Source: Tubulanus polymorphus (taxonomy: Eukaryota > Nemertea > Palaeonemertea > Tubulaniformes > Tubulanidae). Taken from it: a stretch of DNA of 64,000 bases. This document shows positions 27,301-28,214 of this stretch, piece by piece. The translations under genes and the position numbers were made by a program. The notes under the pieces are model-generated. The model had not been told where the DNA came from. It did not search any database and saw only the letters and a list, made by a program, of their open reading frames with translations. The DNA lies in contig NC_134028.1 of assembly GCF_964204645.1 (NCBI RefSeq), positions 26,014,153-26,078,152 on the forward strand, read 5' to 3'. Numbering within the stretch: position 1 is the first letter of the stretch; each line of letters opens with the position of its first letter.

Positions 27301-28214
27301 GGGGGTCACTTTTTTAAACTGATTTTGAATTATGAAGTCTAAACCTAACCTCAAAAACAAATACAATCAAACTCGCTTAATTCAGAACAGTTTAATCCGG
27401 ATTTTGATCTAATCCAATTGCTCTTTACGGTCAACCTATGATATCAAATCCACATATCTCGATAAACTGGAGGATTTCAATTGGTCCCATATGATCTGAA
27501 TAAAGTGAGTTTTGATTGTAGATGAACTTAAAAAGCCTAGTCTAGTTGTTGTTGACGTAATGACGGTATCATTCAAATAGACAATGAATAAACATCTGTC
27601 AACCTTATAATCATTGCAGGGTGAAGTATTGGGTATCACACGATTTGGACTGGCGAAAATGAAAGAGAGCGTGTTGATGTTGGCTTCGGTAAGTTCCGTT
27701 ACAAACTCTATCAATTCTTGAATTAGGACATGAACTGTAGTTTATTTGAATGTATCTCTGCGTGTGTGTTACAGTTTGAGAAGACGGCTGATCATCTGTT
27801 TGAAGCGGCGTATCACGGACAGAGAGATGATATATGTGGAGTCAGTGAATGTATTATTATGGGAATACCTATGAATATTGGAACAGGACTCTTCAAATTA
27901 CTGCATCAATATCCTTTTAATAGTCACTGACGCAGGTGATGTATTTCATCTCGAATTTTCTTCTACTGTCATTAACCAAAACTAGAACTAGTCAAGTATT
28001 TTATTTTATTGCATTTGAAAGTTGTGAAAATATTTTGATCCAGTAGACTGCGCTTGCCACGGTGTTGATAGCTGCCGATTATCAAGTTAAAAATTTCCCT
28101 GCTCAATGAACTGCGTCTCAAAACTTTCTTTAACGAATGTGTACAGCTGATGTGGAGAAATCGCCCGAACGAAGACCACTATTGTTTGATACTGTTGCCT
28201 CTGCTGGATCCTGA
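177..28214 (+). CDS. POLR3A: RNA polymerase III largest subunit RPC1, C-terminal ~795 residues (5' part outside window)
   Basis: Catalytic largest subunit of nuclear RNA polymerase III, which makes tRNAs, 5S rRNA and U6. Coding parts joined: 177-312, 535-699, 799-883, 1413-1500, 1593-1704, 4197-4310, 4396-4553, 5147-5302, 21803-21924, 23437-23522, 23938-24030, 24117-24212, 25518-25640, 25974-26155, 26568-26684, 26770-26878, 27084-27256, 27620-27688, 27775-27908, 28145-28214. All exon phases agree and the sum (2388 nt) is a multiple of three. The product aligns with vertebrate RPC1 from about residue 590 to the C-terminus. It has the bridge helix ([11 protein letters not shown]), the trigger loop ([19 protein letters not shown]) and the conserved end ([15 protein letters not shown]). 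The NADFDGDEMN active-site exon must lie upstream. Introns 12 and 19 are AT-AC. Intron 8 is 16.5 kb. Two opposite-strand GPCR genes sit in introns 5 and 8. A possible poly(A) signal is ATTAAA at 28385. Identity is near certain; exact exon ends are inferred by eye. Confidence 0.96.
535..699 (+). CDS. POLR3A: POLR3A window exon 2
   Basis: Acceptor ttttgtag ends at 534 and donor gtaagt starts at 700. Encodes [28 protein letters not shown] and DAMSRLAR, strongly conserved RPC1 blocks. The split codon with exon 1 gives Phe where vertebrates have Tyr. Confidence 0.95.
799..883 (+). CDS. POLR3A: POLR3A window exon 3
   Basis: Acceptor atacag ends at 798 and donor gtaggt starts at 884. Encodes [14 protein letters not shown] followed by [12 protein letters not shown], the funnel region of the largest subunit. 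Ends with two bases of a Gly codon. Confidence 0.95.
1413..1500 (+). CDS. POLR3A: POLR3A window exon 4
   Basis: Acceptor attaaag ends at 1412 and donor gtatct starts at 1501. Encodes [14 protein letters not shown] and [11 protein letters not shown], matching the RPC1 stretch that precedes the [10 protein letters not shown] block. Too short to appear as a long ORF, but phase and similarity both support it. Confidence 0.93.
1593..1704 (+). CDS. POLR3A: POLR3A window exon 5
   Basis: Acceptor atttcag ends at 1592 and donor gtatgt starts at 1705. Encodes [17 protein letters not shown] and [17 protein letters not shown], nearly identical to animal RPC1. It is followed by the 2.5-kb intron that contains the first nested GPCR gene on the opposite strand. 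Confidence 0.96.
2100..2458. repeat. Degenerate tandem array of ~45-bp units
   Basis: About eight diverged copies of a unit resembling 'tttaatttgactctg-gatccagttccacagttgtg'. The unit shares the CCAGTTCCACAG core with the dispersed palindromic repeat family found elsewhere in the window. The array ends only a few bases from the stop codon of the nested GPCR at 2462, so it probably lies in or beside that gene's 3' UTR. A minus-strand AATAAA occurs inside it near 2313. Confidence 0.8.
2462..3415 (-). CDS. Class A (rhodopsin-type) GPCR, peptide-receptor-like, nested in POLR3A intron 5
   Basis: Intronless 317-codon ORF for a seven-helix receptor at the plasma membrane. TM1 is at about residues 18-43, with Asn35 in the 1.50 position. 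TM2 is at about 54-75 with the conserved sodium-site Asp62. TM3 ends in E126-R127-L128 in place of DRY. TM7 has NSCVNFILY (291-299), a variant of NPxxY. An N-terminal NTT sequon is present, and basic loops (KRSLK, RRKK, KSKQRK) fit the cytoplasmic side. No Cys is seen at the top of TM3, which is odd for the class. The set-up resembles the large lophotrochozoan sets of orphan peptide-type GPCRs (FMRFamide/TRH-receptor-like); the ligand cannot be inferred. The gene lies wholly inside a POLR3A intron on the opposite strand. The first in-frame Met (3415) is used. Confidence 0.85.
   Translation of the reverse strand: MNTTPVYVDNRLWMIKWYRIMYVTPPLVVVGIAFNAMVIIVFHKLKTGNRCIDLLKFLAIVDIMFLVSRSLLNPVRYFIHYAWYGESIKRFPNYRIAPVYLNIWGGMFAKGFLIFRNFLTVIIQGERLVTIIFPLHVKRSLKPLVIITGILSLIFSAYYPITRRKKLSSKYKEFRFVHYIDYAPSGILLQVFRAMNRYIDPIIRIIISNVLVFAANIALIIVLYVKSKQRKTLSASKISSSQNQTKATGMVLTMSIVYTILELPDSLGKIGAERFYKSLMNEIYLVTSLINSCVNFILYTIVNKQFRNMLFHLFKFN
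4197..4310 (+). CDS. POLR3A: POLR3A window exon 6
   Basis: Acceptor gccacag ends at 4196 and donor gtaagt starts at 4311. Encodes [19 protein letters not shown] and [13 protein letters not shown], leading to the bridge-helix region. Confidence 0.96.
4396..4553 (+). CDS. POLR3A: POLR3A window exon 7 (bridge helix)
   Basis: Acceptor ttttcag ends at 4395 and donor gtaact starts at 4554. Encodes [20 protein letters not shown] and the bridge helix block [12 protein letters not shown] / [11 protein letters not shown], which spans the active-site cleft of every multisubunit RNA polymerase. Confidence 0.97.
5147..5302 (+). CDS. POLR3A: POLR3A window exon 8
   Basis: Acceptor atttcag ends at 5146 and donor gtcagt starts at 5303, in phase 0 at both ends. 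Encodes [19 protein letters not shown] and [10 protein letters not shown], conserved in RPC1. The next coding base is 16.5 kb downstream; alignment with vertebrate RPC1 shows no residues missing between the two exons. Confidence 0.96.
5505..5625. repeat. Partial copy of the MITE-like element at 21978-22256
   Basis: The stretch 'tagatgcactaaatagtggt ... ttatacaacacactt-gggtggaa' matches 'tagacgcactatagtggtat ... cacactagggtggaa' in the second half of the element at 21978-22256. Only one half is recognisable here. Confidence 0.55.
6911..6952. repeat. (AT)n microsatellite
   Basis: About 42 bp of AT dinucleotides broken by a single g near the middle. Confidence 0.95.
8081..9151 (-). CDS. Class A GPCR, melatonin-receptor-like, nested in POLR3A intron 8
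   Basis: Intronless 356-codon receptor gene. TM1 has GN at 51-52 and TM2 has Asp80. Cys107 at the top of TM3 can bond Cys184 in extracellular loop 2. TM3 ends NRY (131-133) and runs into [13 protein letters not shown], close to the NRY...C...KYDKLYS pattern of melatonin receptors. TM6 has FWCP (269-272). TM7 has [10 protein letters not shown] (301-310), also melatonin-receptor-like and in place of NPxxY. N-glycosylation sequons lie at residues 16-19. An Asn/Gly/Lys-rich third intracellular loop spans about 230-253, and cytoplasmic cysteines at 325 and 331 could be palmitoylated. Codons are richer in C and G than the surrounding intron, as expected of a constrained gene. Both Met1 and Met15 are possible starts. 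The ligand is unproven; GPR84/Moody-like orphan receptors are alternatives. Confidence 0.9.
   Translation of the reverse strand: MEYTDRILSNIGRKMNNTTAETDDSSDTTPLGLRVFDIVIMTSIVVIGICGNVLILSAVFSSRNLRTLANAFVVNIAVADLVVVAYVLPVVVANVVERANVLGEVTCVMNAGLTVITCACSIWTLAQISVNRYIHVCKHTKYDKIYSKLNVCAMLVTTWSFWIFVTFLSIIWVEHNYNNDSKICIFDHHQSPYFTAFIMVVGIGIPVIVTFVCYYLIYRTIKSSQQRIKNHTGAAGNNAPGNNAKNNKKKRENDALKALFVAFVLFIVFWCPYGIVAILYSVRVQVNGYVFKYSAWLGMSNSCVNSFVYGVMNKTYSDAYKKIVCFWRPYCLNNSIHASTSNSTTIISHTGKESTC
9362..9472. repeat. Palindromic MITE-like repeat, family A
   Basis: About 111 bp. It starts 'ggatccagttccgcagt' and ends with the inverted form 'actgtggaactggacc', with gttaact/agttaac blocks arranged symmetrically inside. 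Further copies are at 17107 and 30929, with fragments at several other places. Confidence 0.8.
13008..13095. repeat. Foldback repeat, family C (partial copy)
   Basis: Contains 'gaaaatggctcatataatt', 'gagttgaaacgtcac' and 'gtgagtttttcttcaatt'. The same blocks recur at 26239-26387, where one arm is inverted. Confidence 0.6.
15341..15377 (+). other. Hammerhead-like hairpin motif, probable retroelement end
   Basis: CCTGATGA is followed by a weak stem-loop and CCGAGAC. The arrangement (CTGATGA, one spacer base, short stem, GAAAC-like box) recalls the hammerhead core carried by Penelope-like retroelements. This copy is mutated in the GAAA box (GAGA). No reverse transcriptase ORF was recognised beside it. 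Confidence 0.35.
17107..17222. repeat. Palindromic MITE-like repeat, family A
   Basis: Starts 'ctggatccagttccacagtt' and ends 'aactgtggaactgtgtcctg', with internal gactctgagtt and agagttaactctaactcac blocks. Inverted termini of about 15 bp. Confidence 0.85.
19781..19820. repeat. Perfect short palindrome
   Basis: Two 19-bp arms, 'catagaactcaaatcaaat' and its exact reverse complement, are separated by two bases. It could extrude as a cruciform or be a decayed foldback element. Confidence 0.9.
20341..20400. repeat. Polypyrimidine (C/T) tract
   Basis: C-rich run of ccctccccctactcccc type, almost purine-free on the + strand from about 20350 to 20396. Confidence 0.85.
20500..20950. repeat. 20-bp satellite, degenerating downstream
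   Basis: About twelve clear copies of a 20-bp unit (cctcagataacctgtccaaa and variants) run from 20501 to 20740 with exact 20-bp phasing. Increasingly irregular 'ctgtccaaacctcacc' units follow to about 20945. Variant units (tcagataacctgtcc versus tcggatagcctgacc) occur in runs, as after unequal exchange. The minus-strand ORF across it is a by-product. Confidence 0.93.
21803..21924 (+). CDS. POLR3A: POLR3A window exon 9
   Basis: Acceptor tttttttcag ends at 21802 and donor gtagga starts at 21925. Encodes [17 protein letters not shown] and [10 protein letters not shown], the less conserved RPC1 stretch that corresponds to vertebrate AVFPCPSE...LQEI. Lower identity, but phase and length fit exactly. 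Confidence 0.9.
21978..22256. mobile_element. MITE-like element, family B, with ccctttcagtgc inverted ends
   Basis: About 279 bp bounded by ccctttcagtgc (21978-21989) and its exact reverse complement gcactgaaaggg (22245-22256). Inside are two small hairpins built on acaccgcactgcggtgt and acaccgcgctgcggtgt. It has no coding capacity, and a half copy occurs near 5505. It lies in a POLR3A intron. Confidence 0.75.
23437..23522 (+). CDS. POLR3A: POLR3A window exon 10
   Basis: Acceptor tttcgcag ends at 23436 and donor gtatgt starts at 23523. Encodes [17 protein letters not shown] and MLCIPT; joins to exon 11 to give [13 protein letters not shown] variable RPC1 region, supported by phase and position. 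Confidence 0.9.
23591..23647. repeat. Half copy of palindromic repeat family A
   Basis: Contains 'aatgagttaactcagagtca' and ends 'ccgtggaactgggccc', matching the right half of the copies at 9362 and 17107. Confidence 0.7.
23703..23790 (+). repeat. tRNA-derived SINE head or tRNA pseudogene
   Basis: A tRNA-like stretch with an A-box-like ggttagcgtacctgc and a near-perfect B box (ggtttgatccc, 23758-23768) preceded by acccg. The cloverleaf is incomplete and no clear anticodon arm can be set, so it is more likely a SINE head or tRNA relic than a working tRNA gene. It lies in the POLR3A intron between exons 10 and 11. Confidence 0.5.
23938..24030 (+). CDS. POLR3A: POLR3A window exon 11
   Basis: Acceptor ttttgcag ends at 23937 and donor gtaaag starts at 24031. 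Encodes [19 protein letters not shown] and [11 protein letters not shown], matching vertebrate LYQLDRIT...KYMRAQMEPG. Confidence 0.95.
24117..24212 (+). CDS. POLR3A: POLR3A window exon 12 (trigger loop)
   Basis: Acceptor ttttcag ends at 24116. Encodes [18 protein letters not shown] and [13 protein letters not shown], the trigger loop that closes on the incoming NTP. The exon ends after the first base of an Asn codon, and the next intron bases are atatccttt, an AT-AC donor. No usable GT donor keeps the reading frame here. Confidence 0.96.
24213..25517 (+). other. POLR3A: U12-type AT-AC intron (POLR3A intron 12)
   Basis: Begins ATATCCTTTA, the U12 AT-AC donor consensus, and ends ...tgtgaac. 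A branch-site-like TCCTTCAC lies at 25499-25506, its adenosine 12 nt from the intron end, within the usual U12 range. Splicing restores [14 protein letters not shown] exactly as in other RPC1 proteins (phase 1). The intron contains a 50-bp tandem duplication at 24491-24590. Confidence 0.92.
24491..24590. repeat. 50-bp tandem duplication
   Basis: Two adjacent 50-bp copies (24491-24540, 24541-24590) beginning ctcagaggag/ctcagaggac and ending ccgcccttctaaaacc differ at only a few bases. Recent duplication inside the AT-AC intron. Confidence 0.95.
25518..25640 (+). CDS. POLR3A: POLR3A window exon 13
   Basis: Starts directly after the AC of the AT-AC intron and ends at donor gtaaat (25641). Encodes [20 protein letters not shown] and [20 protein letters not shown], the conserved block after the trigger loop. 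Confidence 0.96.
25974..26155 (+). CDS. POLR3A: POLR3A window exon 14
   Basis: Acceptor attttag ends at 25973 and donor gtaaga starts at 26156. Encodes [19 protein letters not shown] and [19 protein letters not shown], the jaw-side region of RPC1. Confidence 0.96.
26239..26387. repeat. Foldback repeat, family C
   Basis: The left arm 'actcaattctatcgagccat' and the right part 'catagaattgagttgaaaa' are inverted copies of each other. Blocks are shared with 13008-13095. Small non-coding foldback element in a POLR3A intron. Confidence 0.6.
26568..26684 (+). CDS. POLR3A: POLR3A window exon 15
   Basis: Acceptor tctcttcag ends at 26567 and donor gtgagc starts at 26685, phase 0 at both ends. Encodes [20 protein letters not shown] and [15 protein letters not shown]. 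Confidence 0.95.
26770..26878 (+). CDS. POLR3A: POLR3A window exon 16
   Basis: Acceptor tttttgaag ends at 26769 and donor gtatgg starts at 26879. Encodes [17 protein letters not shown] and [17 protein letters not shown], conserved in RPC1. Confidence 0.95.
27084..27256 (+). CDS. POLR3A: POLR3A window exon 17
   Basis: Acceptor ctcacag ends at 27083 and donor gtaatt starts at 27257. Encodes [20 protein letters not shown] and [20 protein letters not shown], the universally conserved end of the largest-subunit cleft domain. Confidence 0.97.
27620..27688 (+). CDS. POLR3A: POLR3A window exon 18
   Basis: A 69-bp exon. Acceptor cattgcag ends at 27619 and donor gtaagt starts at 27689. Encodes [20 protein letters not shown] plus LAS, nearly identical to other animal RPC1. 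Confidence 0.97.
27775..27908 (+). CDS. POLR3A: POLR3A window exon 19
   Basis: Acceptor gttacag ends at 27774. Encodes [35 protein letters not shown] and KLLH, then stops two bases into a Gln codon at an atatcctttt donor. Reading through the intron would add six wrong residues and stop at 27928-27930. Confidence 0.96.
27909..28144 (+). other. POLR3A: U12-type AT-AC intron (POLR3A intron 19)
   Basis: A 236-bp intron that begins ATATCCTTTT and ends tgtac. The U12 branch-site-like TTTCTTTAAC lies at 28125-28134, its adenosines 11-12 nt from the 3' end. Phase 2. Removing it yields [20 protein letters not shown], which matches the known RPC1 C-terminus. Confidence 0.93.
28145..28214 (+). CDS. POLR3A: POLR3A window exon 20 (C-terminus and stop)
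   Basis: Follows the AC acceptor of the second AT-AC intron. Encodes [16 protein letters not shown], corresponding to vertebrate ADRDPNPPKRPLIFDT, then a short divergent tail VASAGS and TGA at 28212-28214. Too short to be seen as a stand-alone ORF. Confidence 0.92.

Follow-up and report, generated by a model that had tools for sequence, protein, structure and literature searches.

A 64,000-nucleotide stretch of the Tubulanus polymorphus genome (contig NC_134028.1, positions 26,014,153 to 26,078,152; hereafter the window) carries the 3' part of POLR3A, the gene for RPC1, the largest subunit of RNA polymerase III (Pol III). The last intron of its coding region (27909..28144, plus strand; 236 nt, phase 2) is very probably a genuine minor-spliceosome intron, that is, a U12-type intron of the AT-AC subtype in an intact gene. 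U12-type introns have AT-AC or GT-AG ends, and this one begins with AT at 27909 and finishes with AC at 28143-28144, the 3' end letters being TGTGTAC with the last at 28144. Its 5' splice site, ATATCCTTTT (27909..27918, plus strand), has the minor-class form RTATCCTTT and agrees with the consensus at all seven positions from +3 to +9, the base at +5 being C, not G. Near the 3' end, where a branch site like TCCTTAAC is expected, lies TTTCTTTAAC (28125..28134, plus strand), in which TCTTTAAC matches at 7 of 8 positions and puts the branch A 11 nt before the end of the intron. The donor, branch site and AC acceptor of the original prediction, made from the letters alone, are thus present letter by letter, and from this anatomy we infer that the minor spliceosome removes the intron in the cell. 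Minor donors and branch sites have recognisable consensus strings, and these were used for all scoring. They agree with the examples of minor-intron sites given in a published table (PMC7367187).

The gene was modelled by hand, with the start of the first exon (177) set by eye, and the model was checked by translation. It comprises 20 exons (177..28214, plus strand) and translates to 795 residues with zero internal stops, covering the protein from the equivalent of human residue 591 through to its C-terminus; the 5' part of the gene lies before the window, whose first exon begins at human codon 591. With 795 open codons, a pseudogene is rejected. Against RPC1 residues 591-1381 of PDB chain 7a6h_A the model scores 1285.1 bits, far ahead of the best Pol II (454.6 bits) and Pol I (314.4 bits) chains among the best 60 of 113 matches, so that the closest largest subunit within that set is that of Pol III, as the original prediction had named it. 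Pfam finds Rpb1 domains 3, 4 and 5. We take chain 7a6h_A to be human and chain 5fj8_A, used below, to be yeast. The 1,390-residue length of the former agrees with the human protein (PMC10958179). Taken together, the identity of the gene as POLR3A, the U12-type class, the AT-AC subtype and the hidden C-terminus appear well supported by the sequence. The AT-AC introns had been numbered 12 and 19; both exist, but with part of the gene lying before the window these numbers count window introns only. One intron is 16.5 kb long (5303-21802), the other 18 introns of the model measuring 85 to 2,492 nt.

Removing the last intron changes the predicted end of the protein. The penultimate exon (27775..27908, plus strand), ending in KLLHQ, aligns to RPC1 residues 1321-1365 of chain 7a6h_A, and when 27908 is joined to 28145 the frame in the translation stays open to a TGA stop at 28212-28214. 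In the last exon, coding sequence plus this stop occupies 28145..28214 (plus strand); of the first 16 residues encoded there, 9 are identical to chain 7a6h_A, and the spliced 67-residue end aligns to RPC1 1321-1381 of that chain without a gap across 61 of 61 columns (E 6.4e-29), which bears out the proposed match to the RPC1 tail. Read through without splicing, the frame gains six extra residues past 27908 and then meets a TGA at 27928-27930, exactly the premature end that had been foreseen. The last exon's coding sequence falls within a stop-to-stop stretch of only 26 residues and would for that reason be missed at the usual open reading frame (ORF) cut-off, as had also been claimed. The description of this exon as 70 bp long held for the coding sequence and stop at 28145-28214 but not for the whole exon, which must continue as 3' untranslated region. 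A comparison of the 67-residue tail with collections of bacterial, archaeal and viral contigs returned zero relatives, as expected for such collections.

The window holds a second intron of the same kind in the same POLR3A model, at 24213..25517 (plus strand; 1305 nt, phase 1), so the pair of AT-AC introns that had been proposed to lie within 4 kb of one gene is there, the starts being 3.7 kb apart. Its donor is ATATCCTTTA and its branch site TCCTTCAC, the latter 12 nt from the AC end and carrying C where the consensus has A; the intron splits the N codon of the conserved RPC1 stretch MNITLGVP, at a place equivalent to human c.3184/3185. When each of the 19 introns in the model (17 GT-AG, 2 AT-AC) was scored for its donor at +3 to +9 and for its best branch site within the last 45 nt, both AT-AC introns reached 7/7 and 7/8, with the branch A 12 nt (24213) and 11 nt (27909) from the end, and the 17 GT-AG introns reached at most 4/7 and 5/8. 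Across the two strands of the window, [AG]TATCCTTT is present at 24213 and 27909 and nowhere else, in each case followed by a branch site and then an AC. These two introns share with U12-type AT-AC introns generally the donor, the branch site, the branch-to-end distance, the AC terminus and a non-zero phase, and the last intron differs in host position only, as the last coding intron of POLR3A. Minor introns are biased against phase 0 (PMC7367187), which phases 1 and 2 fit; they also cluster non-randomly within single genes (PMC7367187), where one or two is the usual load (PMC6865273), and POLR3A does not differ in kind from other genes with two. In the literature listings and excerpts searched, POLR3A was not found described as a minor-intron gene, and POLR3A co-occurred with 'U12-type intron' only through its appearance in a reference title. 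Rfam at gathering scores found two tRNAs only in the 64-kb window, and none of U11, U12, U4atac and U6atac, which says little about the genome.

The placing and the combination of the signals, rather than any single motif, are what speak against chance. The donor 10-mer ATATCCTTTW was seen twice in the window with 0.67 expected, and 17 of 100 shuffles contained it at least twice; alone, at window scale, it is weak evidence. What is striking is that each of the two matches coincides precisely with the end of a conserved RPC1 exon. The stretch 27901-28160 was put through 10,000 dinucleotide shuffles; requiring for the 3' end a branch site of at least 7/8 followed 8-18 nt on by AC, the ATATCCTTT donor arose in 25 and the branch site with AC in 498; both arose together in none. 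We also compared 1,123 donor/acceptor pairs near the gene's 3' end by the score of the resulting protein to the RPC1 tail, and the 27909/28144 pair came top at 270, with 218 for the unspliced sequence.

Several observations nevertheless weigh against an AT-AC intron at 27909-28144. By protein score, the runner-up pair (AT-AG, 27911/28146; 267) is only 3 points lower, although its donor at 27911 is without the minor consensus, and the best GT-AG pair (27923/28146; 252) also keeps the frame, with extra residues. A second branch-like site lies inside the intron at 27969, with an AC at 27988. The yeast chain 5fj8_A covers the same stretch of the protein, where the tail is weakly alike, with one gap and few identities. 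Finally, the intron has no counterpart in human POLR3A, whose structure we pieced together from published variant coordinates. There, c.4025-1G is a canonical acceptor (PMC7064625), c.4037 falls within exon 31 (PMC9664542), the gene has 31 exons (PMC9649808, PMC10985069, PMC10958179), and in mouse exon 31 is the last (PMC11065635). The nemertean intron maps to human c.4094/4095, inside exon 31, where these coordinates indicate no intron, and the position is therefore without conservation support. The human last intron interrupts codon 1342 in phase 1 and the window's last interrupts codon 1365 in phase 2. The human boundaries readable from these sources are c.1770/1771, 1909/1910, 2003/2004, 3336/3337, 3429/3430 (from the 93-bp exon 26) and 4024/4025; two of the six, c.1770/1771 and c.1909/1910, coincide with boundaries in the window, where the start of the first exon is the one set by eye. 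A literature search for human splice variants at c.3307+ and at the positions of the two AT-AC introns found none, which decides nothing.

Should both introns be removed in the predicted way, POLR3A output would depend directly on the minor spliceosome. At the last intron, U11 and then U6atac would recognise ATATCCTTTT, U12 would pair with TTTCTTTAAC, and joining 27908 to 28145 would restore the RPC1 tail. Retention would instead add six foreign residues before the stop at 27928-27930, with loss of the last 22 residues; since no intron is predicted downstream of that stop, junction-dependent decay would probably spare such a transcript. Unlike this, retention of 24213-25517 would bring in a stop at 24290, far upstream. 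The two introns had further been suggested to place POLR3A, as sensor, in a feedback loop with U6atac, an idea compatible with a U12-type AT-AC intron at 27909-28144 but, in our estimate, unlikely. It draws on the short life of U6atac and on the dependence of its level on Pol II and Pol III (PMC3728624), and both POLR3A introns are well-formed minor introns. Against it, U6atac went up and did not fall in human cells carrying POLR3B variants with low Pol III output, a rise that POLR3B expression reversed (PMC10896340), and human POLR3A, in the coordinates above, lacks the last of the two introns. The loop would then consist of one documented half, the need of U6atac for Pol II and Pol III, and one half that we infer; since the human gene is without that site, a loop running through the last intron would be lineage-specific and not general to animals.

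Among the other ways of reading the splice signals, the branch-like site at 27969 with AC at 27988 could serve as an alternative 3' end within the same minor intron, giving, beside the principal form, a second C-terminus with an unrelated 19-residue tail. The site is present, but a branch site followed by AC was also held by chance in those 498 of the 10,000 shuffles, and we consider its use very unlikely. A major-spliceosome (U2-type) GT-AG intron at 27923-28146, with the AT-AC signals arising by chance, is highly improbable. TACAG is an acceptable major acceptor, which counts for this intron, as does the preservation of both frame and tail. Its donor ATAGTCACT, however, has a score of -1.7, where the 17 GT donors of POLR3A range from 4.5 to 11.0 (leave-one-out); the intron would insert residues into a stretch that aligns gaplessly to RPC1 and would leave a complete minor donor and branch site unexplained, and on these grounds we reject it. 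That the major spliceosome removes 27909-28144 itself despite its AT-AC ends is extremely improbable and is likewise rejected: U2-type AT-AC introns do exist, as in SCN4A intron 21, but those of the sodium channel genes have G at +5 (PMC2831892) whereas the POLR3A intron has C, and here the whole of +3 to +9 fits a minor donor with a minor branch site at 11 nt.

Elsewhere in the window, a tandem repeat of a 26-bp unit (28654-29147; 19 copies, 98% matches) separates POLR3A from a convergent DNA polymerase beta-like gene on the minus strand (29255-30797), which has at least two exons and Pfam matches to the palm, thumb, HHH_8 and fingers domains. The two tRNAs found by Rfam are letter-identical tRNA-Phe (GAA) genes 6.3 kb apart, both on the minus strand (42782-42854 and 49077-49149). 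A long low-complexity stretch at 38494-39588, in which codons for His, Thr and Pro abound, leaves three minus frames open. An ORF at 53949-54473 has no Pfam match at E 0.001; by eye it resembles what we presume to be a cGMP-dependent protein kinase N-terminus.

U6atac is made by the very polymerase whose catalytic subunit is encoded here with a minor intron, and the gene is therefore well suited to asking if such introns ever regulate their own machinery. In this lineage, two AT-AC introns, the last at a place without an intron in human, together with retention leading to a decay-resistant, tailless RPC1, might couple the level of U6atac to Pol III assembly, a lineage-specific arrangement that we hold to be quite unlikely. 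For gene annotation, an automatic procedure expecting GT-AG introns would cut this RPC1 short or overlook its C-terminus. The absence of the intron in human, as read from the published coordinates, means that a comparison across animals could test how old minor introns at this site are and how they turn over.

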